From: Alphaproteobacteria bacterium
GTDB taxonomy: Bacteria > Pseudomonadota > Alphaproteobacteria > Caulobacterales > Hyphomonadaceae
Reading direction: 5' to 3'
DNA: 59,126 bases
NCBI GenBank assembly: GCA_018969425.1
Contig: JAGWYJ010000019.1
Location: 1-59,126 of the forward strand
Shown: positions 1-47,449 of the stretch, piece by piece
Layout: each line of letters begins with the position of its first letter
Numbering within the stretch: the stretch's first letter is position 1
The notes under the pieces: generated by a model
The model's database searches: none
What the model was told of the DNA's origin: nothing
Seen by the model: the letters and a program-made list of their open reading frames with translations, nothing else
Program-made: the position numbers and the translations under genes

Positions 1-603
1 GCCTCCGGTAAATCGCCATCGCAATTGGTGATCTTTTTTCACGGATACGGCCAGAAGGGCGAAGCCATGAAGCCCCTGGCGGCCGCCCTTGCAGCACGCC
101 TCCCGAATGCCGCATTCGTATTCAACAATGCTCCACTCACTCAGGGAAACGGCTTCAGCTGGTACGATTTCGCTGGAGAGAAGGCGGCGGCGACTCGCCA
201 GTCTGCTCAGGAAAGCTCTGCCGCTCTCGTGGCCTCCCTTAGCAAGACCTACAATGTGTCCCCTCAAAACGTCGTCACCGTGGGTTTCAGCCAGGGAGGA
301 GGCGTCGCCGTCATGGCGGGGACATGCGGCGGACCAGACGTGAAGGCGATTGTTTCTCTCGCCGGCGTCGTCCCGGTGACCTGCGACAAAGAGGGAACCG
401 GCGCGGCATCAAGTGTCTTCATCGCCTGGAACGAAGGCGACCCGACGGTCAAGCGTGAGAGAATAGACGCGGGCATCGCCACGATGAAAAAGGCAGGCTA
501 CGAGCCGACCCTCGAAATCTTTCAGGGAACGACGCATTGGCCAGCCGAGGCTGGACTGAAGGCTGCGGAAAACTTCATTGTCGCCCAGCTCGGCGGGAAG
601 TGA
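1..603 (+). CDS. Alpha/beta hydrolase, phospholipase/carboxylesterase family (5' truncated by window)
   Basis: The reading frame is open from base 1, so the true start lies outside the window; the TTG at 25 is only the first start-like codon. The protein is a small serine hydrolase of the Abhydrolase_2 (phospholipase/carboxylesterase, YpfH-like) type. An HGYGQ segment near the visible N-terminus should form the oxyanion loop. The nucleophile motif GFSQGG is at about 284-301, an acidic residue follows in NEGDP (about 430-444), and the catalytic His is in TTHWP (about 529-543). The roughly 200 visible residues match the usual 200-220 of the family, so little is missing. Substrate is not predictable; small acyl esters are typical. 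A strong inverted repeat follows the stop codon. Confidence 0.85.
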   Translation, partial: ASGKSPSQLVIFFHGYGQKGEAMKPLAAALAARLPNAAFVFNNAPLTQGNGFSWYDFAGEKAAATRQSAQESSAALVASLSKTYNVSPQNVVTVGFSQGGGVAVMAGTCGGPDVKAIVSLAGVVPVTCDKEGTGAASSVFIAWNEGDPTVKRERIDAGIATMKKAGYEPTLEIFQGTTHWPAEAGLKAAENFIVAQLGGK

Positions 604-1133: not shown

Positions 1134-2405
1134 CTATTTCTTCAGAGCGTCATAGATCCATGCCCTGTTCTTGCGCTGATACTCCGCCAGCAGAGCACGG
1201 TCCTGGATAAGGAAGATCATGAACAGATCATTCTTGGGGTCCACCCAGAACTCTGTCCCCGCGATACCGTTCCAGGAAAAAGTTCCATTGCCCGGACGCT
1301 GACGCGTGTCGTCAAGCACAAGGCTGAAACCCAACCCGAAACCCATTCCCGGTCCCGGGAAAAAAAGTCCTTTGCCGCGGATAGCTGGGTCCGTCTGATC
1401 CACCCGCATGGCGGCGAGGGTCTCCGGCTTGAGGATACGCACGCCCTTGTACTCGCCGTCTCCGGCCAGCATCAGAGTGAAACGAAGATAATCTTCAGCC
1501 GTTGAGGACAGACCGCCGCCGCCAGACAGGAACGGGGTTGCGGCTGCATAATCATAGTAAAGACTATCCTTGGTCTTGGACTCGGCAAAGCGCGCGCGGT
1601 TGGCCTCCGGCTGAAAGAACGCCGTATCCGTCATACCTAACGGCCCGGTCACGCGCTCACGTACTGCGACGTCAAGCGATTGACCGCTGGCGACCTCAAT
1701 GACCGCGCCAAGGACATCGGTGGAACGAGAGTAATTCCATGCGACTCCAGGATCGGCCTTAAGCGGCAGCGCAGCAATCACTTTGGCGTACTCTCGAGGA
1801 GAGAGATCCGTTCGATTCTCTCCGCCTGCCGCATACGTCTTCCCGAGGGCCGATGCCGGCTCGATAAAGCCATAAATCAGTCCTGAGGTATGGCTCATCA
1901 GATGACGAACAAGCATCGGAGAAGAGGACGGACGCGTGGATCCGTCCGCCTGGAGAACGCGCATATTCGCGAACTCAGGCAGATACTTCGAGACCGGATC
2001 ATCAACGCTTAGCTTCCCCTCCTCGACGAGCGTCATCGCCGTCACGCTGACGATCGGCTTGGTCATCGAGAAAACGCGAAAAATGGTCTCCTCTGTCATC
2101 GGCGCCGTTTGTCCGGGACCCTGGACCCCGAAGCCTTTCTGATAGGCAACCTGTCCGTCTCGGCCGATCAGGAGGTAGGCCCCGGGAATTTTGCCGCTCG
2201 CCACATCGCCTTCAAGTGCGGTCGTAATCTGCTCAAGTTTGGCGGGGTCGAACCCCAGAGCCGCCGGATCGCCTTTGAGAAGGGAGGACTGGGCAGGATT
2301 GAGCCCGGCCTGAGGGGAGGTCATCACGCAACCGGAAAGCGACAGCGCGATGACGAACGCCGCCCCTCCGGTCAGCATCTGCCTGATCATTCGGTTCCCC
2401 GTCAT
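1134..2405 (-). CDS. Secreted lipoprotein serine hydrolase, beta-lactamase/family VIII esterase fold
   Basis: A class C beta-lactamase-like serine hydrolase (PBP4*/EstB type), probably an esterase or D-amino-acid peptidase. The SxxK nucleophile motif appears as SMTK at about residue 113. A YSR motif lies where the YxN tyrosine is expected, and there is a Gly-rich LSGGGG segment later. The start is placed at ATG 2405 because AGGGAG sits 7 nt upstream and the protein then opens with a lipoprotein signal ending LSLSGC; a longer frame up to 2444 lacks this logic. It is predicted to be anchored in the outer membrane or periplasm. It is transcribed divergently from the cytochrome c gene at 2818. 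True beta-lactamase activity is not implied by the fold. Confidence 0.85.
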   Translation of the reverse strand: MTGNRMIRQMLTGGAAFVIALSLSGCVMTSPQAGLNPAQSSLLKGDPAALGFDPAKLEQITTALEGDVASGKIPGAYLLIGRDGQVAYQKGFGVQGPGQTAPMTEETIFRVFSMTKPIVSVTAMTLVEEGKLSVDDPVSKYLPEFANMRVLQADGSTRPSSSPMLVRHLMSHTSGLIYGFIEPASALGKTYAAGGENRTDLSPREYAKVIAALPLKADPGVAWNYSRSTDVLGAVIEVASGQSLDVAVRERVTGPLGMTDTAFFQPEANRARFAESKTKDSLYYDYAAATPFLSGGGGLSSTAEDYLRFTLMLAGDGEYKGVRILKPETLAAMRVDQTDPAIRGKGLFFPGPGMGFGLGFSLVLDDTRQRPGNGTFSWNGIAGTEFWVDPKNDLFMIFLIQDRALLAEYQRKNRAWIYDALKK

Positions 2406-2817
2406 GGTGTCTCTCCCTAATTCTCTGATGGTCGTCGACGACAAAGATTACCCCCTTCTGATAGTGCATCTCGAAGCCCCTCGCCAGTTGAACGAGGAAG
2501 AAGGGAAAGTACCCCCCAGAAGGCTGGTCCCGCCACCTCACAGCCTGGAGGACTTTGACCTGGATCAAGAACCCTCCAGACGCGAAGAGCACGCAGCAGA
2601 GGTTAAAACGGGCTGAAGTCCAGCAACAAATCCGGGAGATCCCCGCCTGTTCAGACGCTGCGATCTGGTCAAGTCGCCGTGACGGAGGACAAGCGCTCTT
2701 GCAGATGTCCGCAGGAGGAATAGCCTCTCCATTGAGGAAATGTCGCTGGAGGGAGTGATGAGGCGCGAAATTCGCGGATTCGCTGATCAATGCGACGATC
2801 AAAATAGGAAAGACACC
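2406..2817. other. 410-bp divergent intergenic region
   Basis: This region separates the minus-strand serine hydrolase from the plus-strand cytochrome c gene and must hold promoters for both. The one recognisable element is the FNR-type palindrome at 2555-2568, listed separately. Short open frames here have no signal sequence, no family resemblance and no convincing ribosome binding site. Confidence 0.5.
2555..2568. promoter_or_regulatory. FNR/FixK-type operator TTGACCTGGATCAA
   Basis: The 14-mer TTGAC-CTGG-ATCAA fits the TTGAY-N4-RTCAA pattern used for CRP/FNR superfamily regulators such as FnrL and FixK of alphaproteobacteria. It lies about 150 bp upstream of the serine hydrolase start and about 250 bp upstream of the cytochrome c start. 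With equal base frequencies this pattern occurs about once in 262,000 positions, so roughly 0.2 hits are expected in this window by chance. Its position beside a cytochrome c gene is sensible for oxygen-responsive control, but no regulator gene is in the window. Confidence 0.5.
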
Positions 2818-3342
2818 ATGACAAGAGGCCGAATGAACGTCGCAGTGCTGGCGGCGGCGTTGATCGGAAGCACTCTCAGCGGATGTGCTCCGTCTTCAGA
2901 ACCCGAGACGGAAGCAGATGTCGCTTCGGCGGGATCCGAAGGCGCCTACCGCACCGAGCTTACGACGGCGGAACTCATGGCGCACGTCCTGGACCACGCT
3001 GCTGACGGGGTCTGGCTCAATCAGGGCTGGGTTGTCGACGATAAGGGAGAAAGAGAGCTTTTTCCGACGACGGACGAAGGCTGGCTTGCTGCGGAAAACT
3101 CTGCGGCGACGGTTGCGGAAACCGCCAACCTTCTCCTCCTGCCAGGCCGGCGGGTCGATGAAGAGCATTGGACCGATCACGCGCACGCGCTTCATAAAGC
3201 CTCGCTGGAAGCGATGAAGGCGGCTGAAGCGCGCGACAAGCAGGCGTTTTTTGACGCCGGCGGCGCGATGTACGTCGCCTGTCGCGATTGTCATCAGGAG
3301 TACATTCTCGGCGAGGAACCGATGAACGGGCCGCAGCGATGA
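2818..3342 (+). CDS. Lipoprotein cytochrome c, class II (c'/c556-like)
   Basis: A small monoheme cytochrome predicted to be lipid-anchored in the periplasm. ATG 2818 is chosen over the longer frame from 2740 because AGGAAAG precedes it and the product then begins with a lipoprotein signal ending STLSGC. The heme motif CRDCH lies only about 15-20 residues from the C-terminus, the position expected in four-helix-bundle class II cytochromes. The body is helical and charged, and the mature length of about 150 residues fits that family. An internal Met as sixth ligand cannot be assigned reliably. About 150 bp downstream begin two membrane proteins on the same strand, so it may donate or accept electrons for them. 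Confidence 0.8.
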   Translation: MTRGRMNVAVLAAALIGSTLSGCAPSSEPETEADVASAGSEGAYRTELTTAELMAHVLDHAADGVWLNQGWVVDDKGERELFPTTDEGWLAAENSAATVAETANLLLLPGRRVDEEHWTDHAHALHKASLEAMKAAEARDKQAFFDAGGAMYVACRDCHQEYILGEEPMNGPQR

Positions 3343-3494
3343 CGGGAAGGTATTGAAAAGAAGAGCTCGACCCGATTGAACTTTGGGGCGATCCTGTCGC
3401 ATTGCCCCAGCGTTCGCGGGGGGCTTACCGTTACGACATGAATGAAGCTGACGGCTAAACAATCGCCGCAGCGCCGCAGGGGAGGCTAGTAGAC

Positions 3495-4202
3495 GTGTTC
3501 CACGAATTTTTCAGATGGCTTCAGGAGGACCTCGGGTTCGACCCCGAGCAGGGAGCCTCCTGGAGTCAGCAGTTTCTAGGTTCATTCAATCTCTGGTCAA
3601 TACTTGAGGGAACGCACGTTCTGACCCTCATGCTGTTCGCTGGGACCATCTGGATTGTCGACCTGAGAATGCTGGGCGTCGCTTTCAAGAACGTCCCGTT
3701 CTCCAAGATCAACGACAAAGTTCTTCCCTATACGGCGGTCGGTTTCGCGGCCATGCTGATCACGGGCTTCATCCTGTTCCTCGCCAAACCGATGGACTAC
3801 TACCACAACGTGTGGTTCCGGGCAAAACTCATCTTCCTCATCATCGCCTCGATCAATATCTTCTGGTTCCACCACAAGGTTCAGAAAAATCAGGAGGAGT
3901 GGGATGCCAATCCCAATCCTCCCCTGCCCGTGAAGATGTCTGCTGTCATTTCTATGACATCGTGGATTCTCATCATCATCTTTGGACGCTTCATCGCCTA
4001 CAACTGGTTTGAGTGCGGCAAGCCTCAGCCAGCATTCGTGAACGTTTTCGCGGAGTGCGCCTCGACATCAGCCGGGGTTGTCCGCGCCGACGCCATTCTC
4101 GAAGATGGAGCGATGGAGACCGCGCCCCTGGAGGCGCAGGCACCGTCTACTGAAGATGCTCCCGAAAGCGCGCCCGCCGCAACTTCGGAAGAGGGGAATT
4201 GA
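3495..4202 (+). CDS. DUF6644-type multi-spanning membrane protein
   Basis: An inner-membrane protein of unknown function with about five to six hydrophobic helices. It carries the motif ILEGTHVLTLML followed by DLRMLGV, which I associate with the DUF6644 family. The conserved Glu-x-x-His-x-Leu-Thr-Leu and the HH in WFHHK could ligate heme or a quinone, but this is inference. The roughly 50-residue C-terminal tail is Ala/Pro/Glu-rich, low-complexity and probably cytoplasmic or periplasmic linker-like. It sits downstream of the cytochrome c gene and 3 nt upstream of a second protein of the same type, with which it is presumably co-translated and may form a heteromer. The start at 3495 could also be a nearby alternative codon. 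Confidence 0.75.
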   Translation: MFHEFFRWLQEDLGFDPEQGASWSQQFLGSFNLWSILEGTHVLTLMLFAGTIWIVDLRMLGVAFKNVPFSKINDKVLPYTAVGFAAMLITGFILFLAKPMDYYHNVWFRAKLIFLIIASINIFWFHHKVQKNQEEWDANPNPPLPVKMSAVISMTSWILIIIFGRFIAYNWFECGKPQPAFVNVFAECASTSAGVVRADAILEDGAMETAPLEAQAPSTEDAPESAPAATSEEGN

Positions 4203-4205
4203 ATC

Positions 4206-5039
4206 ATGGACTTCTATACTCTTTTTCCCAACCTCGAACCCTGGGTTCAAAACCTCGCCGGCGTCTGGCCAGCCTCTGTCATTAAGCCGTCGATCTGGAT
4301 GTTCGCAGCGATTGAGGCGGTGCATCTGTTGACGCTCGGCCTCCTGGGCGGCTGCGTCATTCTTCTCAATTTCAGGCTATTGGGTATCGGTCTTACGACT
4401 GAGCCGATTTCGGTCGTAGAGAAAAACCTGCGTCTTTGGCTTTGGGTGGGCGTCGGAGGCGTTCTTCTGACGGGCGTCGCCATCGGCATGTCTAATGCAG
4501 AAAAGCTCTACACCAGCCCGGCCTTTTTCGTAAAAATGGTAAGTCTCGCCGCGGGCCTGATCTTCTCATTTGGCGTCACCAACGCCATAGCGAAGTCCGA
4601 AGGCTCAATCTCCACCGGGACCAAGATCGCTGCTGTCATAGCCTTTGTGCTGTGGCTCGCTTCGATCGGCGTCTTCGGCGCAGCAAGCGGAGCGAACCCT
4701 GGAACGGTGCATCTAGTTTGCGCAGGCTACGCCATCCTCTTCGCCTTCGGATCCAAGCTGCCGAAAATTATCGGCGCAGCCGCTCTCGCCAGTCTGGTTC
4801 TGGTCGGCTGGATACTCACCTACGGCGTGTGGAATGTATGGGACAATTACGAGACCGTCACTCAGATCAACATCTGGTTTGTTAGGGCGGCCGCGGTCAT
4901 TCTTGTCGGCCTCCTGGGATATGACATCTTCACGTCCCGCTCGACCGAGACCTCGCCGGTTGTGAAACTCGTGGCGCTGTTCTCGATACTGTCATGGGTC
5001 ACGATTGCAGCGGCAGGCAGGTGGATCGGACTGAGCTGA
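4206..5039 (+). CDS. DUF6644-like membrane protein, paralogue of the preceding gene
   Basis: A second multi-spanning membrane protein of the same type. It has the matching motif AIEAVHLLTLGLLGG followed by NFRLLGIG, then further hydrophobic segments, about eight helices in all. It is longer than its neighbour in the membrane part and lacks the low-complexity tail. The gene begins 3 nt after the preceding stop codon, so the two are translationally coupled. The shared Glu-x-x-His-x-Leu-Thr-Leu in the first helix is the only polar pair that both keep inside the membrane. A strong terminator follows at 5064. Function is unknown; a membrane electron-transfer or quinone-binding role is suggested only by context. 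Confidence 0.72.
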   Translation: MDFYTLFPNLEPWVQNLAGVWPASVIKPSIWMFAAIEAVHLLTLGLLGGCVILLNFRLLGIGLTTEPISVVEKNLRLWLWVGVGGVLLTGVAIGMSNAEKLYTSPAFFVKMVSLAAGLIFSFGVTNAIAKSEGSISTGTKIAAVIAFVLWLASIGVFGAASGANPGTVHLVCAGYAILFAFGSKLPKIIGAAALASLVLVGWILTYGVWNVWDNYETVTQINIWFVRAAAVILVGLLGYDIFTSRSTETSPVVKLVALFSILSWVTIAAAGRWIGLS

Positions 5040-5063
5040 TCGAGCCCTCCTCACTCTAAAAAG

Positions 5064-5096
5064 AAGCCCCTCCCGGTTATCGGGAGGGGCTTTTTT
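5064..5096. terminator. Intrinsic terminator, probably bidirectional
   Basis: A perfect GC-rich stem (core 5066-5075 with 5081-5090, loop 5076-5080) is followed by six T residues on the plus strand. An A-rich run on the left side gives a T-rich tail on the minus strand. It ends the DUF6644 pair and also suits the converging gene that ends at 5129. Confidence 0.93.
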
Positions 5097-5128
5097 GATC
5101 ACCGCATCTGAAATCGGCGGAGGGACTT

Positions 5129-6151
5129 CTATTCTGCATCCCCTGCTACGACGGTTTTTCGACCCAGACGCTCGTCCTGACGAGCTCCCGCGAGGATGCC
5201 GGGTAGCGAGTAGTTACCCTCATGACAGGCATACTCGTAAATCTTTGCGGGAGTTGCCGTGAGAGACATCTCCGCCCGCCAAGGCTGCGTGAAGGCCGTC
5301 GGATCCTCGACCTGAAACTCGTAATGAATCGTCCCGTCTGCAACACGCGTAAATCGCTCAACAACCTTGGCCCTGTCGCCGAGGAAAAACGATTGATCCA
5401 TATTCGGACGAAGAGCGATATCGGGATGGAAGTTCACCGTTTCCACGACAAGAGTGTCGCCCTCCCACCAACCGATAGAATCTCCGAGCCATTTCCGAAA
5501 CGAGTCCGGAGCGTGTTTGCTATTGATAGGAATGATCCGGGCGTCGTGGTTCATCTCAACCATGATGACGACATGATCGGGCGTCTGAACGATCTGATAG
5601 TGGTTGTTATAAAGCACATTGACCATCGGCGGGCCTCCGGTTGAACCGAACCCGACGATGCAGCGTTCGCCCTGCGGACGGATCTCGGGACCATCGAATG
5701 TTCCACGAACCCGAGCGAGGCGCGTCTCGTATGTCTTGCGTCCGGCATCCGAATAAGGGATCCGCCCATCCTGAGGGTCGACGATCCACGAGGTCCGACG
5801 CTCCCCCTTAACAAGACCATAGGTCGTTCCCGGATCGATCCAGAACGCGTTGTAACCGCCGACATCCTGTCCGGCTCGCGGCGCACCTTCCGCCGGATTG
5901 GTGGCGCTGTTCTGGGCGGCCATCATCCGTGCGCGCTGTCCTTCCGCACGCAAGGCTTGTTCTTCAGAGATCACCGGGCCCTTGACCGAGCGCGGGCGCT
6001 CAAGCGGCGTGAGGCTCGCATTGGTCCAAACGCCCTGAAGATCGGGGCGCCCATCAGGTGTCCGGGGAGGCGCATATGGCGCCTGCGCCTGAGCGGCTCC
6101 AAGAAAAACAGAGAATGCGAAACCCGTCAGAACAAAACCCGCTAGCTTCAT
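5129..6151 (-). CDS. Secreted protein of the 'PDLQGVW' family, paralogue 1 of 3
   Basis: A periplasmic or secreted protein of unknown function. ATG 6151 is chosen because AGGGAG lies 7 nt upstream and a signal peptide ending AAQAQA follows directly. The mature N-terminus carries PPRTPDGRPDLQGVW. Further landmarks are a Cys in GERCIVGFGST, the core motif GWWEGDTLVVE, and a C-terminal Cys-His segment YACHEGNYSLPG. The two cysteines are conserved in the neighbour at 6224, so a disulfide or metal site is possible. I know this family only as 'hypothetical protein' commonly found near DUF6152, DUF6644 and PQQ-dehydrogenase-like genes; no activity is established to my knowledge. It is 72 nt downstream of its paralogue and probably co-transcribed. 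Confidence 0.75.
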   Translation of the reverse strand: MKLAGFVLTGFAFSVFLGAAQAQAPYAPPRTPDGRPDLQGVWTNASLTPLERPRSVKGPVISEEQALRAEGQRARMMAAQNSATNPAEGAPRAGQDVGGYNAFWIDPGTTYGLVKGERRTSWIVDPQDGRIPYSDAGRKTYETRLARVRGTFDGPEIRPQGERCIVGFGSTGGPPMVNVLYNNHYQIVQTPDHVVIMVEMNHDARIIPINSKHAPDSFRKWLGDSIGWWEGDTLVVETVNFHPDIALRPNMDQSFFLGDRAKVVERFTRVADGTIHYEFQVEDPTAFTQPWRAEMSLTATPAKIYEYACHEGNYSLPGILAGARQDERLGRKTVVAGDAE

Positions 6152-6223
6152 TTTCATTCTCCCTGATTTCGTCGTTGTCTTAATGCAGTCTCGAACAAGC
6201 GGCATGGGCGACACTTCGAGCCG

Positions 6224-7282
6224 TCACTCTCCATCGCTATCGACCAGAGTCTGAACGCCTCGTCTTTCATCAGCCCGCGCACCGGCGAGAATTCCTGGGA
6301 GGGAGTAGTTCCCTTCATGGCAGGCATACTCGTACACCGCCCCCGAGGCGCGGGTCATGACCATCTCCGCACGCCAGACTCGGGAGAAGATTTTTGGATC
6401 ATCGACAGAGAACTCGTAAAGGATCTCGCCATCAGCCACACGCGTGAAACGCTCGATAATCTTGGCGTCCGGAGAAATGTAGAATGTGATGCCCGTATTG
6501 GTGCGAAGACTTTCCTGGGGATGCATGTTCACCGTCTCAACCACCAGCGTCTCTCCCTCCCACCATCCGATCGAATCCCCCATCCATGGCCGGATCGCAT
6601 CGCTGCGATGGGGGCGACCGATGGGAATCACTCTCGCGTCATGATTCATCTCCACAAGGATCACGATGTGCTCGGGCGTCTGAACAATCTGATAGTTGTT
6701 GTTATAAAGGACGTTCATCATCGGAGGTCCGGCAGTTGAGCCGTAACCGACGACACATCTTTCTCCGAGAGGACGGATTTCCGGCCCATCGAAAGTCGTG
6801 CGACGCCGCATGAGATCTGTCTCGTATATCGCCCGGCCTTCTGGAGTGTACGGGAGACGTCCATCAGGCGGATCGACCACCCAGGAGGTCCGGATCTCGC
6901 CTTTAACAACCGCCATTCTGGAACCGCTGTCGATATAGACATTGTTATAGCCGCCAACATCCCTTCCTTTCGGGGGCGCCCCTGTCGTCGGATCTGTCGG
7001 TCGAGCTCCGACCGCGGTTCTTTCGGCAATGCGACGGGCAATAGTGTCCGCTTCCTCAGGGGTCAGGGTCGGTCCCTTAAACTGAGAACTCCGCTCAAGA
7101 GTGGTAAGCGAGGTGTTGGTCCACACCCCTTGAAGATCTGGACGACCATCGGGTGTTCGAGGCGCGGTCCATGTGGGGGCGCCCTGAGCGTGCGAAAGAA
7201 GAGCCCCTGTCGTTGCGCTGATCAGACAAGCCGAAGCAGTCGCTGCTCGAACGATCACCCCAATTCGCGCGATCTTGATCAT
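6224..7282 (-). CDS. Secreted protein of the 'PDLQGVW' family, paralogue 2 of 3
   Basis: A close paralogue of the gene at 5129, sharing nearly every landmark in the same order: APRTPDGRPDLQGVW after the signal peptide, GERCVVGYGST, YQIVQTPEHIV, GWWEGETLVVETVN and YACHEGNYSLPGILAGAR near the end. ATG 7282 has GAGGAG 10 nt upstream and gives a plausible signal peptide; a TTG at 7291 is too close to that site. The tandem pair looks like an old duplication, since the signal peptides and termini have diverged while the cores stay similar. Function is unknown. The upstream terminator at 7368 suggests it has its own promoter or relies on readthrough from the DUF6152 gene. Confidence 0.75.
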   Translation of the reverse strand: MIKIARIGVIVRAATASACLISATTGALLSHAQGAPTWTAPRTPDGRPDLQGVWTNTSLTTLERSSQFKGPTLTPEEADTIARRIAERTAVGARPTDPTTGAPPKGRDVGGYNNVYIDSGSRMAVVKGEIRTSWVVDPPDGRLPYTPEGRAIYETDLMRRRTTFDGPEIRPLGERCVVGYGSTAGPPMMNVLYNNNYQIVQTPEHIVILVEMNHDARVIPIGRPHRSDAIRPWMGDSIGWWEGETLVVETVNMHPQESLRTNTGITFYISPDAKIIERFTRVADGEILYEFSVDDPKIFSRVWRAEMVMTRASGAVYEYACHEGNYSLPGILAGARADERRGVQTLVDSDGE

Positions 7283-7367
7283 GATGAGCAATCTCCTCTC
7301 CCCATCGCGCGGATACTTCGACCCGTCGCCGACACAATTCTCAGACGTCTGAACAGCGCCTGAGGTT

Positions 7368-7404
7368 AAAAAAAAACCGCCGCCTGCAACACTGCAGGCG
7401 GCGG
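7368..7404 (-). terminator. Intrinsic terminator of the DUF6152 gene
   Basis: A perfect 12-bp stem (7377-7388 with 7393-7404) and a 4-nt loop are followed on the minus strand by nine consecutive T residues (A run at 7368-7376). It ends the minus-strand transcript from 7972. Confidence 0.93.
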
Positions 7405-7444
7405 TCCTGTCACACAGTCGCTGGACCTGATCAGGTCGAAGACC

Positions 7445-7972
7445 TCAGGCCGCGCCAGCCGCGCACTTGGAGGCCTGACCGCCTTCGGAGGCGTCGGAGC
7501 CATCACGCGGAGCGCCGGTTCCCGACGATCCGACGAAGAGCTTGCAGCCGTTGGGGAACGTCACGTCTCGTCCGTTGGCCTTGCAGGTCTTCACTTTAGT
7601 CTTTGGATGAGTCTCACAGAGCGCGTCCTTGGACTGATAGCCGCGCACCACGATTTCGGTGCCGACAGGCAAGGACGACTTATTGATGCCAGTCCTCAGA
7701 AGGGTGTTGGGGGTGCCGCCCTCAACAGCCCAGTTGAACGTCGTCCCCTGAGCAGCTTTACCCTTGGCGTCGGTATTCGGAACATTGATATGGATCCATG
7801 TGTGCGGATTCACCCACTCAACCGTCACCACCTTGCCCTTGAGAAGCACCGGAGCGTTCGCATCAAACTCCGCCGCGAAGGCATGGTGCGCGTAAGCCGC
7901 CGAACCCACACCCACTGCTCCCACCAGGGGAAGAACCGCTGCCATCAAGGCGAAACGCACTTTCTTGTTCAT
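7445..7972 (-). CDS. DUF6152 family secreted protein
   Basis: A small exported protein of unknown function. An ideal AGGAGG lies 7 nt before ATG 7972. The signal peptide is followed at the mature N-terminus by HHAFAAEFDANAPV, then KGKVVTVEWVNPHTWIHINV, which is the DUF6152 hallmark. The two adjacent histidines at the predicted mature end could bind metal. The C-terminal third contains several Cys residues (in ALCETH, KTCKA, NGCKL and the terminal SKCAAG), more than I would expect from the core domain, and may form disulfides. In many genomes DUF6152 genes sit beside 'PDLQGVW' family genes, as here. It is monocistronic, judged from the terminator at 7368. Confidence 0.8.
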   Translation of the reverse strand: MNKKVRFALMAAVLPLVGAVGVGSAAYAHHAFAAEFDANAPVLLKGKVVTVEWVNPHTWIHINVPNTDAKGKAAQGTTFNWAVEGGTPNTLLRTGINKSSLPVGTEIVVRGYQSKDALCETHPKTKVKTCKANGRDVTFPNGCKLFVGSSGTGAPRDGSDASEGGQASKCAAGAA

Positions 7973-8078
7973 CTGACTTCCTCCTGCACTCGCCAGGGGT
8001 GCCCCTCTGACGCCGCTGATTGCCGACCTTTCCCCGCCCGAGCTCGAACCCGGAAACAGGAAGGCCTTTTCCTGCTAC

Positions 8079-8105
8079 TTAATAATCAAGAATTCCCGAT
8101 ATCAA
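8079..8105 (-). promoter_or_regulatory. Candidate promoter for the DUF6152 gene
   Basis: The 7973-8267 stretch has no gene. Its AT-rich centre reads on the minus strand TTGATA (8105-8100), a 15-nt spacer, then TATTAA (8084-8079), about 105 nt before the start codon. The spacer is short for a sigma-70-type promoter, so this is only a candidate. Confidence 0.3.
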
Positions 8106-8267
8106 GTAGAACATCTCATCAAACTTCAGTCTTCGTCCCGCCCAGACAATCGCTCGTTAAGAACGCTCATCCGACGAGTAACCTAGCCGAGGCTCCGCTT
8201 CACTTCGATCCGTAAAACACAGTCGTTACAGTCACGACTTCGTCAAAACGCGAGGCAAGAAGCGAAA

Positions 8268-8295
8268 CCGCCAGGTCGGACAACCGACCTGGCGG
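8268..8295 (-). terminator. Hairpin terminator after the third 'PDLxGVW' gene
   Basis: A perfect 12-bp stem (8268-8279 with 8284-8295) and a 4-nt loop, 12 nt after the stop of the minus-strand gene at 8307. The minus-strand tail is TTTCGCTTCTT, a moderate U tract. Confidence 0.75.
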
Positions 8296-8306
8296 GGGTA
8301 GGCCTG

Positions 8307-9227
8307 TTACTCAAGCGGCTGCTTGCTCTTTTCAAGAGCGGGCCCGGGAAGCGGGTTCGCCCGAAGGTGGCCGTACATCAGCTCTTCGACGAACTCGACG
8401 CACTTGAATTGCTGAAGTTGAGCGTCCTCTCCGACGCGACGGTAGAGATTGTAAGCGATTTTCCAGGGCTTCGTGTAGGTTTCCGGATCCTCGATTGTCG
8501 CCTCATACCTCATCGTATTCGGGCTGGTAGGCGTGTAACGCTCTACGACCTTGGTCGTTGAGCCGTGGTGGTTGCCCGCCCGATCCAGCCAGGTATCAGA
8601 CAGCAGACCCGTCACCTCTACAACGAACGTGTCGCCCTCCCAGCGGCCGTAGGACTGCCCCATCCAGCTATCGATTGGAGCTTCACCCGGATCTTCCAGG
8701 AAGACGTTCCGGACCGCGCCGGCATATTCATAGGCGAAAAACACCGCCTTATCCGAATGGAAGATCTGGAAGGGGTAGGGCATGTAATTGGCCCTGGGAA
8801 CGCCCGGCAGGTAGCACTTGATCTCAGGGTCGCGATTGATCCAGTCGGCCTTGTTTTCATTACGAAGAGCCAGGGCTTCCGGGGTGTAAGGGATCTTACC
8901 GTCGCCCTGCACGATGCCTACGCCGGCCGGAACAGCTCCGACGGCGCCCAAAGCCACCACACGGGCGTCAGGAACCGGAACATAGGGACCAGGGCGGAGC
9001 TGCATCGCCGCGCTCGCCGGATGAGCTTCAATATTGTAATTTGCGGTGTTGAGCACCTGCCAGACCCCGTTCAGGTCCGGATGTTTGCCGTCAGGCCCCC
9101 TGGGGGCGACATAAGCTGCAGCCGCAGCCGGAGCCGCAGCAGCCTGAGTGGACGCTCCTTCAGTCGGCGCGGTCTGACACCCCGCCAGCGCGACTCCCAG
9201 AACCAGTGTAGAAACAAGCTTCTTCAT
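8307..9227 (-). CDS. Lipoprotein of the 'PDLxGVW' family, diverged paralogue 3 of 3
   Basis: A third, more distant member of the family found at 5129 and 6224. ATG 9227 follows GGGAGGAG and begins a lipoprotein signal ending VALAGC, so unlike its paralogues this one is membrane-anchored. After an Ala-rich linker come APRGPDGKHPDLNGVW, a Cys in EIKCYLPGVP, YGRWEGDTFVVEV, and a C-terminal Cys in FKCVEFVEELMYGH. The two-cysteine layout and the 'trp-glu-gly-asp' core are kept, while the GERC and CHEGNY contexts are replaced. It is probably a separate transcript ending at the hairpin at 8268. Function is unknown. Confidence 0.72.
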   Translation of the reverse strand: MKKLVSTLVLGVALAGCQTAPTEGASTQAAAAPAAAAAYVAPRGPDGKHPDLNGVWQVLNTANYNIEAHPASAAMQLRPGPYVPVPDARVVALGAVGAVPAGVGIVQGDGKIPYTPEALALRNENKADWINRDPEIKCYLPGVPRANYMPYPFQIFHSDKAVFFAYEYAGAVRNVFLEDPGEAPIDSWMGQSYGRWEGDTFVVEVTGLLSDTWLDRAGNHHGSTTKVVERYTPTSPNTMRYEATIEDPETYTKPWKIAYNLYRRVGEDAQLQQFKCVEFVEELMYGHLRANPLPGPALEKSKQPLE

Positions 9228-9370
9228 AACTCCTCCCCGTACGCCCAACACTTATGACCTGTCCCCGTTCTAGGACCTACCGCTTCCGCCTTCTGATTTG
9301 TTTGGCGGCGAGCGATACGAACGGGATGAAGCGCGAAGGGCCGACGCTGCGGTAAGGAACATACCGACCT

Positions 9371-15935: not shown

Positions 15936-17942
15936 ATGGCTTTGAAACTGGCGGCTCGCACCACCCGATCGACGCTTGGTGCGCTTTTAATGGCGGCTAC
16001 GACTTTAGGCGTTTCAGCATGCAGATCGCCGGACAGCGTCGCCCTTGGCTCGCCCCCCGCGCAACTGGCGGCGAATGAGGCGGCGCCCCGTCCGGCCGAA
16101 CCCGTTGCGATGACGTCAGCTAACGGGCCCCACCCGGGGGAAGCGATTTACAAAGCCAACTGCGCCGCATGCCATGACAACGCCGAAGCCACCCGCTCGC
16201 CGTCGAAGGAAACGCTCGGCAAGATGAGCTTCCAGTTGATCAATTACGCGCTCACAATGGGCAAGATGCAGGTTCAGGGACAGGCTCTGAGCGACGACAA
16301 GCGCGCGACCCTCATCAACTACCTGATCGGCCGAAACGCGTCGACGGGCGACGCGTGGGCTCAGTCCATGATGTGCCCGACCGAACGCAGGAAGATTTCC
16401 CTCGAAGGCGGCGCGAAAGTCTCGACGTTCGGCTTTGACAGGTCGAACACCCGGTCTCTGACCGAGGCCCAGGCAGGGCTGTCGCGCTCTCAGCTGGCCA
16501 ATCTCGAGCTGGCCTGGTCGCTCGCCATCCCTGACGCCACCACAATGAGATCTCAGGGGGCGATTGTAGGAAACACCCTTTTCCTGCCCGTGGCGGACGC
16601 CTCGGCCATGTATGCGATCGATATATCGGCCCGGCAGCCGTGCATTCAGTGGATTTACCGAACGCCCGGCGGGGCGCCCCTCAGAACAAGCGCAGCCTAT
16701 GGTGTGATTGCTGACGGAACGCCCCTGCTGGTCTTCTCCGGGCTCGATTCGACCGTCCATGCCGTGGATGCGAGAACGGGAAAAGCCGTCTGGACAAAAG
16801 GAGTCGGAAGCTTCCGCTTTTCCCTGACGACCGGGACGCCGACTGTGATGCGGGATCGGATCATCGTCCCTGTCGCACAGTACGAGATCTCCGTCGCGGC
16901 GGCCAATGAAGAGCTTTGCTGCACCAATCATGGGTATGTGTTGTCCCTTGACGCAAAGACGGGCGAGCAGAAGTGGCGCTACGACACAATGCCGGAGGCC
17001 AAGCCTGTCAGAGACCGCGGAGACGGGAAGATGCTGTGGGGTCCATCAGGCGCCCCAATCTGGAACTCCCCAGTTGTGGATGAAAAGCGGCGACTTATCT
17101 ATTTCGGAACGGGCGAAGCGAACTCGGCCCCCACTCACCGCAACACCAATGCGATCATAGCCATCAATCTGGACACTGGACGTGAAGTCTGGAGCCATCA
17201 GGCGACCGACCGGGATATCTTCCTCTCGGGCTGCGGGCCGCGCCCTGGCCCCGAAAAACTCAATTGCGAAACCGAAACAGTCTACCGGGACGTGGACTTC
17301 GGAGCATCGGTGATCCTCGGCAAGCTCACGTCAGGACGGGAGGTTCTGTTCGCAGGGCAGAAATCCGGCACCGTCTGGGCCCTGGAGCCGGACACTGGAA
17401 AGGTCATCTTTCAGCGAGACATCGGAACAGGCGGGCCTCTGGGAGGCATTCACTGGGGCATAGCGTTCGCTGACGACACGATTTATGCGCCGATCAGCAA
17501 CCCTGGGCGCCCCCTTCCGGGTCAGCCGCCCCTCGATCCCAGCATTAAGGCAGGAGTTTATGCAGTGGATGCCGAAACTGGCGAGATCAAATGGAGATTC
17601 ACGCCGACGCCTGAGTGCGGCGGACTGTCGCCGTCGGAAGCGCGAGTGTGCGCGCGGGGTGCGGCTTTCTCAGGCGCGCCGACCGTTATCGGCGACACGT
17701 TGGTGTCCGGAACGCTCAGCGGAGACCTTTATGTTCTGGACCGAAAGACGGGCGAACCGATCTGGAAAACAAGCACCCTGAAATCCTATGCGGCCAGCAA
17801 CGGACTAACGGGTCAGGGCGGAGCGATCGACGGAGCCTCGATTGTCGCCTCGAACGGCCTCCTGTTTGTCAATTCAGGATATGGAATGTTCGGCCAGCAG
17901 GCTGGGAACATGGTTCTCGCATTCAGACCCGCCCAGAACTGA
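15936..17942 (+). CDS. Quinohemoprotein dehydrogenase, polyvinyl-alcohol-dehydrogenase-like (cytochrome c + PQQ propeller), copy 1
   Basis: A periplasmic lipoprotein (signal ending LGVSAC, Cys29). It has an N-terminal cytochrome c domain (CAACH, Cys76-His80, likely Met ligand in GKMQV) followed by a PQQ-binding beta-propeller of about 500 residues rich in 'ALDAxTGxxxW'-type blades. Adjacent Cys328-Cys329 (in ELCCTNHG) match the vicinal disulfide of quinoprotein alcohol dehydrogenases. Heme-first order plus this motif resembles PVA dehydrogenase (cytochrome), which oxidises secondary alcohols and passes electrons to the heme. The actual substrate may be any polyol or secondary alcohol. GGGGAG precedes ATG 15936. 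A paralogue follows 147 bp downstream. No PQQ-biosynthesis gene is in the window. Confidence 0.85.
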   Translation: MALKLAARTTRSTLGALLMAATTLGVSACRSPDSVALGSPPAQLAANEAAPRPAEPVAMTSANGPHPGEAIYKANCAACHDNAEATRSPSKETLGKMSFQLINYALTMGKMQVQGQALSDDKRATLINYLIGRNASTGDAWAQSMMCPTERRKISLEGGAKVSTFGFDRSNTRSLTEAQAGLSRSQLANLELAWSLAIPDATTMRSQGAIVGNTLFLPVADASAMYAIDISARQPCIQWIYRTPGGAPLRTSAAYGVIADGTPLLVFSGLDSTVHAVDARTGKAVWTKGVGSFRFSLTTGTPTVMRDRIIVPVAQYEISVAAANEELCCTNHGYVLSLDAKTGEQKWRYDTMPEAKPVRDRGDGKMLWGPSGAPIWNSPVVDEKRRLIYFGTGEANSAPTHRNTNAIIAINLDTGREVWSHQATDRDIFLSGCGPRPGPEKLNCETETVYRDVDFGASVILGKLTSGREVLFAGQKSGTVWALEPDTGKVIFQRDIGTGGPLGGIHWGIAFADDTIYAPISNPGRPLPGQPPLDPSIKAGVYAVDAETGEIKWRFTPTPECGGLSPSEARVCARGAAFSGAPTVIGDTLVSGTLSGDLYVLDRKTGEPIWKTSTLKSYAASNGLTGQGGAIDGASIVASNGLLFVNSGYGMFGQQAGNMVLAFRPAQN

Positions 17943-17996
17943 GCGGCTCAACTTGACGTGATAGAGAGCCTGGCGAACTGACCTAAGGGCATGAGT

Positions 17997-18010
17997 TGAC
18001 GTATACGTCA
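17997..18010. promoter_or_regulatory. Perfect 14-bp palindrome TGACGTATACGTCA, candidate operator
   Basis: It lies 80 bp before the start codon of the second quinoprotein, in a 147-bp gap between two like-oriented paralogues. A perfect 14-bp palindrome with further TTGAC half-sites on both sides (17953 and 18018 areas) suggests a dimeric regulator. It resembles MerR-family LiuR-type boxes from memory; that assignment is tentative. Confidence 0.45.
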
Positions 18011-18089
18011 GGCAGAGTTGACTATGCCGTTGAAGTTACGGGCGCCCCGACAGGTCATGACGGGGGAAAGACTCGAAGGAGAAGCGACG

Positions 18090-20063
18090 ATGCAGCGACA
18101 CGACAACCCTAATCGATCAGATCCGACGCCCGTGACGAAACGCCTTGGCGTTGCGCCGATCTTCGCGATGGCTGCGGCTCTGGCCCTTGCCGGATGCTCG
18201 ACTAGCGACGCTCCCGCCCAGCAGGCCGCGACGACGATTGCGGCGGCAGCGCCGCAGCCCCATCCGGGCGAAGCGGTTTACAAAGCCAACTGCGCGAGCT
18301 GCCACGACAATCCGGATCTGACCAAGGCGCCGACCCTGGAGAGCCTCGCCCGCCTCAATTCGGGCCAGATCGTCAATGCGTTGATCACGGGCAGGATGGC
18401 TGCTCAGGCGGCAAGCCTGACGTCAGAGCAGGTGACATTCGTCGCCGATTATCTCTCGAAGGCTGAAGAGGTCGACGACAGCTGGGTGTCGGCCATGATG
18501 TGCCCGAGCAATCGTCGAACGCCCAAACTGACCTCGGCCCCGACAGTGTCGACCTTCGGGTTCGATCTGAAGAACTCTCGCCGGCTGAGCTACGCTCAGA
18601 CAGGTCTCGACGCCGCAGATATGACCAATCTTGAAGTGGCCTGGGTGGTCGGATTCCCTGACGCAATCACCATGAGATCCCAGGCTGCGGTTGCGGGATC
18701 AACAATCTTCCTTCCGGTCGGCGAACATAAGAACCGCCTGTTTGCATTCGATATCTCGTCCGAGAAGCCATGCATTCAGTGGATCTATGAAGCGGAACGC
18801 ACGCTTCGCACGAGCGCCGGATTTGGAACTCTTCCTGACGGCCGCAAGGCGGTCGTGGTCGGCGACCTCGGCGCTTATATCCATATGATTGATGCGAAGA
18901 CAGGCAAGCGTATCTGGGAATCGCACATGGGGCTCTTCCCCGCCTCGGTCTCAACCGCGACACCGGTTATCGTGGGAGACAAGGTTTTCGCGCCCTCCTC
19001 CCAGTATGAGATCATGATGGGCTCGGTCGACAGCCACGTCTGCTGCAAGACCCATGGCGGCGTCGTCGCTCTTGACGCATTGACCGGAAAACGGGTGTGG
19101 GAAGGCCACACAATGGAAGACGCCAAGCCGGTCCGCGACCGAGGCGACGGACAGATGATCTGGGGTCCGTCCGGAGCGCCGATCTGGAATTCACCGTCGA
19201 TCGACCTGAAGCGCAATCGCCTTTATGTCGGAACGGGTGAAGCGACATCCCCGCCCGCGCACAAGAATACGGACGCTCTGATGGCGTTCGATCTATCCGA
19301 TGGTTCGGTGAAGTGGGCTCATCAGGCGACGGCGAACGATATCTTTGTCGTGGGCTGTCAGCCCGGATCCAAGGCTAAGAACTGCGTTACGGCCACAGAG
19401 ACGGTCTACCGGGATGTGGACTTCGGAGCCTCGACGATCCTGGCATCGACGCCTGCAGGACGCGAGCTCGTTCTGGCAGGGCAGAAGTCAGGAACCGTGT
19501 GGGCGATGGATCCTGATAACGGCTCAGTGGTGTGGAGAACCGACATCGGCACTGGCGGGCCCAATGGCGGCGTTCACTGGGGAATCGCGGCAGACGATAC
19601 GCATGTCTACGCCCCCATCAGCTATGCAGGCCGTTCGATACCGGGCCAGCCCGTCCCCGAGACTATCAAACCGGGACTTTACGCCCTTGATCTGAATGAC
19701 GGATCCATCGACTGGTCCTTCCATGCCACGCAGGACTGCACCGACGCTCGTAAGAAGTTTGTGCCGCGCTGCAACTCCCTGTTTGGCCTGTCAGGAGCGC
19801 CGACAATCATCGGCGATCACATTGTGACCGGGGGTCTCGACGGACGCGTCTACATGTTCGAGAGGAAGACCGGAAAGCTGGTCTGGCAATTCGACACGGC
19901 GCAGGACTTCGCGACTGTGAACGGGGTCAAGGCCAACGGAGCTTCGGTCGACAACGCCTCGATCATCGCCACCAATGGTCTGCTCATTATGAATTCGGGC
20001 TATGGCCTCTTCGGCCAGGGTGCAGGAAACGTGATGATCGCCTTTAAGCCTCGCAAGAACTGA
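18090..20063 (+). CDS. Quinohemoprotein dehydrogenase, polyvinyl-alcohol-dehydrogenase-like, copy 2
   Basis: A paralogue of the preceding gene with the same order of parts: lipoprotein signal ending LALAGC (Cys36), cytochrome c domain with CASCH (Cys68-His72, likely Met in GRM), and a PQQ propeller with adjacent Cys318-Cys319 in HVCCKTHGG. ATG 18090 is chosen because AGGAG lies about 8 nt upstream; the open frame from 18018 lacks this and would bury the signal peptide. The strings VRDRGDG, WGPSGAPIWNSP, ETVYRDVDFGAS and GQKSGTVWA are shared by both copies. The duplicate suggests either two substrates or two expression regimes; the palindrome upstream of this copy only favours the latter. A long hairpin follows at 20083. 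Confidence 0.85.
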   Translation: MQRHDNPNRSDPTPVTKRLGVAPIFAMAAALALAGCSTSDAPAQQAATTIAAAAPQPHPGEAVYKANCASCHDNPDLTKAPTLESLARLNSGQIVNALITGRMAAQAASLTSEQVTFVADYLSKAEEVDDSWVSAMMCPSNRRTPKLTSAPTVSTFGFDLKNSRRLSYAQTGLDAADMTNLEVAWVVGFPDAITMRSQAAVAGSTIFLPVGEHKNRLFAFDISSEKPCIQWIYEAERTLRTSAGFGTLPDGRKAVVVGDLGAYIHMIDAKTGKRIWESHMGLFPASVSTATPVIVGDKVFAPSSQYEIMMGSVDSHVCCKTHGGVVALDALTGKRVWEGHTMEDAKPVRDRGDGQMIWGPSGAPIWNSPSIDLKRNRLYVGTGEATSPPAHKNTDALMAFDLSDGSVKWAHQATANDIFVVGCQPGSKAKNCVTATETVYRDVDFGASTILASTPAGRELVLAGQKSGTVWAMDPDNGSVVWRTDIGTGGPNGGVHWGIAADDTHVYAPISYAGRSIPGQPVPETIKPGLYALDLNDGSIDWSFHATQDCTDARKKFVPRCNSLFGLSGAPTIIGDHIVTGGLDGRVYMFERKTGKLVWQFDTAQDFATVNGVKANGASVDNASIIATNGLLIMNSGYGLFGQGAGNVMIAFKPRKN

Positions 20064-39490: not shown

Positions 39491-40320
39491 TGAAAATACA
39501 GCCGGATGCGTGGATCGGTCGTCAGGAAATCCGGACCGAGAGAGTGGAGCGGGAACCGTTCCGGCGACTTCGGGCGATGTTGAATCAGGACCCTGACGAA
39601 TCAGTGGACGTCCTGCCCCCGCTAGGACACTGGCTATGCTTCCTTCCGGATGCGCGGCAATCGGCTCTAGGCCCGGACGGACATCCTGGGAACGGAAACT
39701 TCCTGCCGGATTTCGGCCTCCCGATGAGAATGTGGGCAGGCAGCCGACTGACTTATTCACACCCCATTCGCATCGGTGAGGACATCACACGCACCTCGAC
39801 ACTCGTCAGCGTCGAGGAGAAGACGGGGCGCACAGGACCTCTGGCGTTCGTGACTGTTCGAAACGAGCTCCGGGCAGGAGATCAGGGTCGGCTGACCGAA
39901 GAACTCGACATCGTGTTCCGCGACCGGAGCGGACAGGGTCGGCTGCCGCCCGGTGAGCCTAAATCGCCCGGAGAGACGGTGCGGACGGTCCAGCCGGAAA
40001 CCTCCCTCCTCTTCCGTTACTCCGCACTGACATTTAACTCGCACCGCATCCACTATGACCGAGACTACGCTGTTAAAGAGGAAGGATACCCAGGACTGGT
40101 CGTCCATGGCCCTCTTCTCGCAACACTGCTGATGGATCACTTTATCTCGGCCAAGCCGGGTGAGACGATCCGGACATTCGAGTTTCGCGCCCGCAGGCCG
40201 ATTTTCGATCAGGCCCCATTCACCCTTCACCTGACCTCCACGTCACAGGGCGCCGAACTCTGGGCTGCAGGACCTGACCAATGTCCAGCAATGACGGCGG
40301 AGGTGACGACTTGTCGTTAA
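39490..40320 (+). CDS. MaoC/HTD2-like hydratase, itaconyl-CoA or mesaconyl-C4-CoA hydratase type (RipB/Ich-like)
   Basis: A 276-residue double-hotdog hydratase. The N-terminal half has PLGHWLCFLPDARQSALGPDGHP and GLPMRMWAGSRL. The C-terminal half has the active-site run FRYSALTFNSHRIHYDRDYA followed by EGYPGLVVHGPLLATLL, diagnostic for the mesaconyl-C4-CoA/itaconyl-CoA hydratase branch of FAS1-like dehydratases. The reaction expected is hydration to citramalyl-CoA. It is embedded between an acyl-CoA dehydrogenase (1-base overlap) and a CitE-like lyase (overlapping start), and the next gene is a CoA-transferase, the set known as RipABC or Ict-Ich-Ccl. Confidence 0.85.
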   Translation: MKIQPDAWIGRQEIRTERVEREPFRRLRAMLNQDPDESVDVLPPLGHWLCFLPDARQSALGPDGHPGNGNFLPDFGLPMRMWAGSRLTYSHPIRIGEDITRTSTLVSVEEKTGRTGPLAFVTVRNELRAGDQGRLTEELDIVFRDRSGQGRLPPGEPKSPGETVRTVQPETSLLFRYSALTFNSHRIHYDRDYAVKEEGYPGLVVHGPLLATLLMDHFISAKPGETIRTFEFRARRPIFDQAPFTLHLTSTSQGAELWAAGPDQCPAMTAEVTTCR

Positions 40321-47439: not shown

Positions 47440-47449
47440 GGACAAACTT

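Follow-up and report, generated by a model that had tools for sequence, protein, structure and literature searches.

Three protein families to which no function has been assigned, namely DUF6152, DUF6644 and a family that we refer to as PDL after its PDLxGVW motif, make up one co-inherited system, first seen in a 59,126-nucleotide stretch of DNA from a member of the Hyphomonadaceae (Alphaproteobacteria), here called the window. Across 61 related genomes, the same 23 carry PDL, DUF6152 and DUF6644 proteins and the other 38 carry none of them. In 397 genomes of Pseudomonadota, all 12 PDL-positive genomes carry both DUF6152 and DUF6644, and DUF6152 is found in all 32 genomes that have DUF6644, lying within 5 kb in 30 of these. 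At an E-value of 0.001 these searches detected DUF6152 in 48 genomes and DUF6644 in 32 (47 and 23 over the family cut-offs), and the 12 PDL-positive genomes are a lower bound, as around five candidates were scored per genome. A preliminary description of the window had proposed a conserved multi-gene system of function-less families that would recur together across genomes; this system is real, its co-occurrence is very strong, and the grouping of these gene families exceeds chance.

The genes on which that proposal was built, encoding a cytochrome, a DUF6644 pair, a DUF6152 protein, three PDL proteins and two haem-PQQ proteins, all lie at the positions given for them:

1134-2444, minus strand: beta-lactamase-fold hydrolase (PF00144; Pfam, 9e-73)
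2818-3342, plus strand: CYT, class II (c'/c556-like) cytochrome c lipoprotein with lipobox LSGC and CxxCH
3495-4202, plus strand: DUF6644 protein a, four transmembrane helices, invariant His, C-terminal tail with Cys (PF20349, 1e-12)
4206-5039, plus strand: DUF6644 protein b, with an extra hydrophobic stretch inserted before the last helix (PF20349, 2.2e-18)
5129-6214, minus strand: PDL 1, long type, predicted secreted calycin-like barrel (AlphaFold2 model; likely start ATG at about 6157)
6224-7291, minus strand: PDL 2, long type (58% identity to PDL 1)
7445-7972, minus strand: DUF6152 protein, predicted mature N-terminus His-His, and Asn-Pro-His (PF19649, 4e-29)
8307-9251, minus strand: third PDL, short-type lipoprotein of the core clade (lipobox LAGC; likely start ATG at 9227)
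15936-17942, plus strand: first PQQ beta-propeller with N-terminal cytochrome c, an optional partner (Pfam)
18018-20063, plus strand: second PQQ beta-propeller with N-terminal cytochrome c, an optional partner (Pfam; 49% identical to the first)

Both DUF6644 genes score over the PF20349 family cut-off in Pfam, with protein b matching in two stretches, and the PDL proteins of the window have no matching family in Pfam or NCBIfam. The families also occur joined in single proteins, as DUF6152-PDL fusions at two loci (L131 and L184) and as DUF6152-PDL-DUF6644 fusions at two more (L174 and L175). Contigs carrying the system are assigned to the Alphaproteobacteria, the Gammaproteobacteria including SAR86, the Myxococcota, the Acidobacteriota and the Acidimicrobiia, many of them being metagenome bins for which a single taxon assignment may be wrong. 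Among cultivable bacteria, long-type PDL genes occur in Povalibacter uvarum and in isolates of Phenylobacterium. A search of plasmids with DUF6152 gave no match, and one with PDL found only three Novosphingobium plasmids (27-28%), one of which carries two DUF6644 genes, a hypothetical protein, PDL and DUF6152.

Neighbourhoods were compared between 31 core loci and 92 other PDL loci, with genes called by an ORF heuristic together with family profiles, such that some overlapping ORFs are counted twice (L188, L191 and L056 are examples). The core loci include near relatives (the window and L054; L068, L069 and L071; L125, L127 and L151), and eight of them (L183, L185 and L188-L193) had been retrieved on account of a DUF6152 or DUF6644 gene; once these eight are removed, DUF6644 is near 15 of 23 core loci and CYT near 20 of 23. 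A HupE/UreJ-like permease is near 9/31 core loci and 1/92 others, which favours the metal reading preferred below. The hydrolase family PF00144 lies within 10 kb of 10/31 core and 22/92 other PDL loci (p 0.36); it is a frequent neighbour of PDL genes and is not core-specific, its rates and those of the PQQ proteins given below being comparisons of core with other PDL loci. A gene cluster provisionally termed c5 was dismissed as antisense noise over PDL genes.

The three PDL proteins of the window had been described as paralogues, and they are homologous by sequence, the second and third being 58% and 28% identical to PDL 1. The 3.2 Mb genome encodes 19 PDL proteins (20 matches, two of which are pieces of one ORF), with 19 invariant columns that include P, G, W, two Cys, E and R. 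Diversified PDL copies number in the dozens. Eighteen of the 19 copies are of the long type, which is mostly scattered away from DUF6152, and it is the short type that sits near DUF6152; the layout is one of a single core and many copies. The short type forms a clade of 28 rows (SH-aLRT 99) in a tree built in quick mode from 188 of 196 PDL rows (at least 230 residues, no X), a tree that carries a long-branch warning and has two long branches, L183 and L185, within the short clade.

An AlphaFold2 model of PDL 1 (pLDDT 88.2, pTM 0.86) has eight consecutive strands in residues 161-276, predicted to form an eight-strand up-and-down barrel like those of solved calycins; the fold assignment derives from this one model, of a long type. 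Foldseek places it with the CRBP, CRABP and FABP proteins at a probability of 1.00, although the best E-value is only 2.1e-3 (6e6m; target TM 0.50, query TM 0.23), and a search of solved structures with the PDL profile gave no sequence relative up to E 1. As in the lipocalins and fatty-acid-binding proteins, there is a conserved G-x-W at the first strand, a lipocalin signature, whereas the long N-terminal wrap, two invariant Cys and C-terminal helix set the PDL proteins apart from other calycins. The earlier suggestion was that PDL proteins may bind or process the substrate; the predicted fold is compatible with ligand binding. The best fold matches being retinol-, retinoic-acid- and fatty-acid-binding proteins, PDL could simply be secreted lipocalin-like carriers for hydrophobic nutrients that the core only docks or recycles, with no redox chemistry on the ligand. 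The many diversified copies suit such ligand capture or transport, as does the finding that no His is invariant across both PDL types in the alignments (75 of 78 non-redundant rows plus the short PDL of the window), leaving no evident PDL metal site. A dedicated cytochrome is hard to account for in these terms, and no transporter or pathway family recurs beside PDL genes, where the maximum is 4 of 119 near neighbours (a sodium:dicarboxylate symporter and a HAD hydrolase) against 3 of 120 far ones, among the first 25 families listed for each set; we regard ligand capture as unlikely. The sample comprised 119 of the 220 genes lying no more than 1.5 kb away and 120 of the 411 at 5 kb or more, of 150 to less than 1200 residues and excluding genes already labelled by eight family profiles. 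Catabolic operons around the scattered PDL genes were rejected as an explanation on the same absence of a recurrent family among near neighbours.

The small cytochrome had been counted as part of the system, and its distribution bears this out, CYT being near 23/31 core loci and 3/92 other PDL loci. In 68 genomes searched at a limit of 0.001 it was found in 11, made up of 8/12 PDL genomes and 3/56 others, the 20 genomes without DUF6152 in this set being the first listed and not a random draw. Its match to PF01322 is weak (E 0.002, under the cut-off), and the profile of a 21-row alignment matches the solved cytochrome c' 1cpr (E 4.6e-5) over the C-terminal third only. The C-terminal CxxCH lies on a c'-like helix, as in class II cytochromes; by comparison with cytochromes c' and c556, the window protein is a lipoprotein linked to this system. 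In the alignment the CxxCH is invariant, as is a Met in the region of the first helix, a combination that would fit a low-spin electron carrier.

The distribution of CYT and its invariant Met and CxxCH suit an envelope electron chain, in which a PQQ dehydrogenase would oxidise an outer alcohol, CYT would carry the electrons, the DUF6644 pair would reduce quinone and PDL would bind the substrate. Compact clusters in SAR86 (L127) and on a gammaproteobacterial contig (L151), in the order PDL, PDL, DUF6152, CYT, DUF6644, DUF6644 with PQQ adjoining, point the same way. Each DUF6644 chain has one invariant His (77/77), which rules out a cytochrome b561 type of quinone reductase, where two pairs of transmembrane His lie in one chain. 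In SdhC/SdhD, haem b is held between two paired membrane chains with one His from each, and two DUF6644 chains may hold haem b between them in this manner. DUF6644 genes are paired, at least two matches being found in 9/12 PDL genomes against 1/20 others (G370). The first 185 residues of DUF6644 protein a are modelled as four long helices (pLDDT 83.7), for which a fold search gave no significant match (best E 1.9) and no significant match to cytochrome b, and a profile search of solved structures gave nothing usable. Furthermore, of the 32 genomes in which DUF6152 and DUF6644 occur together, 20 have neither a PDL match nor CYT at E < 1e-10, the limit at which CYT presence was counted here in place of 0.001, so the basic job of DUF6644 need not involve CYT; one of these 20, G370, has a PDL-like domain inside a triple fusion that the PDL search missed. 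PQQ dehydrogenases, finally, are near only 13/31 core loci (9/92 others). The route from quinoprotein through CYT to DUF6644 put forward in the preliminary description thus keeps its cytochrome, its quinoprotein becomes optional, and the route itself is possible; for the electron chain as a whole we see only a limited chance.

The PQQ proteins also raise the prospect of a degradation island for polymers of the polyvinyl-alcohol type or polyols, built of PQQ proteins, esterases and a cytochrome, to which PDL and the DUF proteins would be accessory. The first PQQ protein is a distant relative of a plasmid quinoprotein of the polyvinyl-alcohol degrader Sphingopyxis sp. 113P3 (30% identity over 89%, tblastn), and the genes of the window have hydrolases of the GDSL and beta-lactamase-fold types in their vicinity. 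The 113P3 gene, from the polyvinyl-alcohol dehydrogenase operon, adjoins genes for one hypothetical protein, an MFS transporter and a cytochrome of the c type; both loci place a PQQ propeller next to a small c-type cytochrome. The 113P3 stretch, however, has no annotated DUF6152 or DUF6644, and tblastn of its plasmid with the window DUF6152 and PDL found no match. In the present system PQQ is not a core part, with close relatives of the window protein (E 1e-40) in 4/12 PDL genomes; in two of the eight lacking one (G182 and G202), a looser profile does find PQQ genes within the core. Such an island appears to us very improbable.

The reading that we prefer, tentatively and at less than even confidence, is a metal and electron module of the cell envelope, resembling CopC/CopD, that serves secreted barrels. 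In all 51 distinct DUF6152 proteins an HH is followed by a PH, the residue before HH always being Ala, Gly or Ser, and five further proteins that the profile had missed agree (5/5), so that a mature N-terminal His, as in CopC, is predicted in 56/56, with the motif as the only guide to signal cleavage ahead of HH. This arrangement is like that of N-terminal-histidine copper sites. The second His belongs to an invariant P-H, usually NPH, and differs from the DxH of CopC, while the mature protein would start His-His, a pair that could instead bind nickel, cobalt, zinc or haem. No usable relative of DUF6152 was found among solved structures. Two published accounts of CopC/CopD systems report that copper use depends on the N-terminal His and on a conserved His of CopD (PMC12362106; PMC13344008).

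As in CopC/CopD (YcnJ-type) copper uptake, a small periplasmic protein with a predicted N-terminal His stands beside a partner in the membrane that has a single key His, and fusions between the partners exist. Alignment of DUF6644 with CopD by hhalign superposes the invariant His, Gly and Lys on those of CopD. The score is 25.3, whereas 200 column shuffles reach no more than 19.2, reversed profiles give 15-17 and HupE gives 14.6. The resemblance is weak, with probabilities of 3-11% (best run 11%, P 0.0028), and cyclic rotations of the CopD profile score up to 25.5; rotation keeps the same segments and is a poor control, for which reason weight was given to the shuffles, reversals and HupE. The Pfam CopC and CopD models, PF05425 included, do not match the window DUF6152 or DUF6644 up to E 0.1, and genome G000 has no CopD match. 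Around stand-alone DUF6152-DUF6644 pairs, no copper family recurs among 91 neighbour proteins (chosen from the 116 nearest in 20 loci), with no family present more than twice among 25 of 96 families listed; single copper genes may lie beside such pairs. The present system differs further from CopC/CopD in its tie to calycin barrels and, often, to a cytochrome.

In this CopC/CopD-like module, the periplasmic DUF6152 would bind a transition metal at its N-terminal-histidine site, copper being the likeliest, and would pair with the four-helix DUF6644, itself usually present as a pair where PDL occurs, as CopC does with CopD. The class II cytochrome would give or take electrons. The unit would act on the calycin-like PDL proteins, the short PDL being a constant component of the core and the many long ones, encoded across the genome, sharing that one core while binding or processing different small hydrophobic ligands. 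The metal and its delivery, the direction of electron flow and the ligands are those that we infer. A more far-reaching version, which we think quite improbable, is that DUF6152 provides an oxygen-activating copper centre of a new N-terminal-histidine kind, with PDL barrels presenting hydrophobic substrates, one fixed in the membrane-bound core and dozens exchangeable. Electrons would then be supplied by the class II cytochrome, together with the PQQ dehydrogenases in genomes that have them; quinoproteins are likewise able to drive lytic polysaccharide monooxygenases.

Because tested defining features of known systems are absent here, the novelty lies in the assembly, and no description of a layout in which one dedicated core is accompanied by numerous secreted barrels encoded across the genome was found in the open-access literature. 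The chemistry may be a variant of CopC/CopD copper handling; if DUF6152 does activate oxygen, many ranges of substrate would become open to one oxidase core. With three function-less families recognised as one co-inherited system, DUF6152, DUF6644 and PDL can now be tested together.

The window is contig C80 of a 3.25 Mb genome (G000), and the cytochrome, the DUF6644 pair, DUF6152, three 'PDLxGVW' proteins (here PDL) and two PQQ proteins were all found where the preliminary description had placed them, the PQQ pair outside and the others inside 2818-9251:

2818-3342, + strand, lipid-anchored class II cytochrome c
3495-4202 and 4206-5039, + strand, two DUF6644 genes (a and b), 3 bases apart
5129-6214 and 6224-7291, - strand, two PDL proteins, the first being PDL 1
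7445-7972, - strand, DUF6152
8307-9251, - strand, third PDL protein, lipid-anchored
15936-20063, two PQQ propellers with N-terminal haem

The stretch ahead of the PQQ pair contains a permease of FtsX type, an ORF that by eye looks ATPase-like, a GDSL lipase and an FG-GAP protein. A run of ORFs at 38333-50555, by eye resembling acyl-CoA dehydrogenase and other CoA-catabolism genes, is apparently unrelated.

PDL, DUF6152 and DUF6644 are inherited together. Among 61 related genomes searched at E 0.001, each occurs in 23, which are the same 23 genomes, and the remaining 38 are without all three; the carriers are spread over 6 of 22 genera, with a chance by genus of about 1 in 75,000 if genera are independent. 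Across 397 evenly drawn Pseudomonadota, DUF6152 was found in 48 genomes, DUF6644 in 32 and PDL in at least 12; both DUF6152 and DUF6644 are present in 12/12 PDL genomes, and DUF6152 in 32/32 DUF6644 genomes (hypergeometric p 1e-12 to 1e-35 without correction for relatedness, 1e-8 to 1e-10 by genus). DUF6152 can also stand alone: no DUF6644 match was obtained in 16 of the 48 genomes that carry it. The families are found together in both genome sets, and the co-occurrence that the preliminary description had made its main test is therefore borne out. They are also neighbours: DUF6152 and DUF6644 lie at most 5 kb apart in 30/32 genomes, and PDL at most 3.5 kb from DUF6152 in 11/12 (three of the 11 placed from separate locus data), the exception being genome G307, in which a PDL copy with stop codons is on a different contig from DUF6152.

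No Pfam or NCBIfam family was matched by the three PDL proteins of the window, which gave only a sub-threshold lipobox match and a chance-level score. The AlphaFold2 model of PDL 1 (76 sequences) is confident (pLDDT 88.2, pTM 0.86) and has eight consecutive strands, preceded by an N-terminal wrap and followed by a C-terminal helix. Among solved structures, Foldseek ranks cellular retinol-, retinoic-acid- and fatty-acid-binding proteins highest, headed by 6e6m (E 2.1e-3, probability 1.00, target TM 0.50, query TM 0.23), and no match reaches E 0.001. A G-x-W conserved at the first strand is reminiscent of the lipocalin signature. Two Cys are invariant and possibly form a disulphide.

The genome carries 19 PDL genes (20 matches, two being pieces of a single ORF), 37-58% identical to PDL 1 apart from the most distant, the third window paralogue, at 28%; all 15 searched genomes of the genus, this one included, have 20 to 37 matches. 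A scan of named genomes confirmed at least 588 PDL stretches, and the 79 loci kept, many from metagenome bins, cover Hyphomonadaceae, Phenylobacterium, Steroidobacteraceae, SAR86, other Gammaproteobacteria, Acidobacteriota, Myxococcota and Acidimicrobiia. Long PDLs have a C-terminal CHEGN motif that short ones lack. Of the short PDLs, 34/38 are no more than 3.5 kb from DUF6152, of the long ones 126/158 are away from it, and no unlabelled family recurs near PDL genes in the sampled neighbourhoods; there is therefore one core set, with a short PDL as fixed member, plus many scattered long PDLs. In a quick tree, 28 of 32 motif-less rows form one clade (SH-aLRT 99, with two long branches inside it) that holds the window lipoprotein together with Acidobacteriota, Actinomycetota, Gammaproteobacteria and Hyphomonadaceae rows. 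G000 itself has a single DUF6152 and a single pair of DUF6644 genes, not counting a sub-threshold match on contig C20; apart from its short PDL it carries 18 PDL genes. In some relatives the DUF6152 matches number as many as 6.

The main rival is the electron chain of the preliminary description, running from quinoproteins through the cytochrome to DUF6644. We compared 123 PDL loci, 31 core (DUF6152 within 3.5 kb; several near relatives, and 8 fetched for DUF6152 or DUF6644) and 92 other, counting neighbours within 10 kb of PDL. The cytochrome accompanies 23/31 core against 3/92 other loci and DUF6644 21/31 against 1/92; for PQQ the counts are 13/31 and 9/92, and the PQQ step of the chain is optional at best. 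In 68 genomes (48 with DUF6152, 20 without), the 21-row cytochrome profile matched below E 1e-10 in 7/12 PDL genomes against 1/56 others, and at E up to 1e-40 a close relative of the PQQ protein in the window is present in 4/12 against 1/56. The tightest cluster, in SAR86 (L127) and a further gammaproteobacterial contig (L151), reads PDL, PDL, DUF6152, cytochrome, DUF6644, DUF6644, with PQQ on the opposite strand. A Sphingopyxis 113P3 quinoprotein stretch, examined as annotated, is presumably the PVA operon. PMC9602593 gives background on PVA (polyvinyl alcohol).

Other neighbours within 10 kb are a HupE-like permease (9/31 core, 1/92 other), a PF00144 hydrolase (10/31, 22/92) and the unnamed family C15 (9/31, 0/92). 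C15 members (L068:5514-6104, L101:7835-8467, L122:2500-3072 and others) come after the HupE-like permease and by eye have one membrane helix and an exported domain; the single member scanned had no Pfam match. An apparent 720-aa lipoprotein with an AhpC/TSA domain and EF-hand-like end (L102:12187-14349; its cluster is in 5 loci) adjoins a core locus, and large esterase-family proteins (COesterase, Abhydrolase_10; L190:5426-7123, L183:6993-8483) are encoded inside some of the core clusters, where they separate PDL from PQQ or DUF6644 genes. The Novosphingobium humi plasmid NZ_CP103870.1 (L205, typed non-mobilizable) carries a core of two DUF6644 genes, a hypothetical protein with a GH39-like match, PDL and DUF6152, near acyl-CoA degradation genes.

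In 24 diverse aligned DUF6152 members the start Met, a His-His, a Pro-His and one Gly are invariant. His-His and a later Pro-His occur in 51/51 distinct profile-labelled proteins and in 5/5 further ones of the fetched loci, detected by Pfam and missed by the profile. In the 51, the residue before His-His is always Ala, Gly or Ser, so the pair should stand at the mature N-terminus expected after signal-peptidase cleavage. Copper held by an N-terminal His through amine and side chain is a hallmark of CopC and DUF1775 sites, according to PMC12362106. DUF6644 (77 sequences) has one invariant His, Gly and Lys and a nearly invariant Gly-Arg; for protein a the model shows four long helices (pLDDT 83.7), and its structural matches are not significant (best E 1.9). 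An hhalign alignment to an upstream-extended CopD profile places the His residues of the two families in one column, and likewise the Lys (score 25.3, P 0.0028, probability 11%), with controls at 15-17 (reversed profiles), 14.6 (HupE), at most 19.2 (200 column shuffles) and up to 25.5 (rotations, a poor control), a hint but not proof of kinship. According to PMC13344008, copper use depends on the conserved CopD His in B. subtilis YcnJ, and the paper reports the same for E. coli YebZ. Two or more DUF6644 matches were found in 9/12 PDL genomes against 1/20 others of the 397-genome draw.

DUF6152 and the PDL barrel part share one ORF in L131:4113-5195 (a Hyphomonas sp. ih12 bin; profile E 4.4e-21) and L184:6172-7320 (9e-22). 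Two loci of one genus, L174:5727-7508 and L175:5966-7678, encode DUF6152, a PDL-like barrel and DUF6644 as a single chain (best barrel stretches 8.5e-11 and 2.8e-9, DUF6644 part 5.2e-32 and 6.8e-31). These fusions argue for physical contact.

Among the open-access papers searched in full text, none was found for DUF6152, DUF6644, PF19649 or PF20349. Two results count against the metal and electron reading favoured here: among the neighbouring proteins sampled, stand-alone DUF6152-DUF6644 pairs have no recurrent copper family, and PDL has no invariant His. The parts, their co-inheritance and adjacency, the fusions, the long-PDL fold and the conserved residues are computed observations, and on our best reading the locus would be an envelope metal and electron unit serving a family of secreted barrels. 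The metal would be copper, the cytochrome would have a role in the unit, and the unit would deliver the metal to PDL, or do chemistry on PDL, whose ligands would be hydrophobic.
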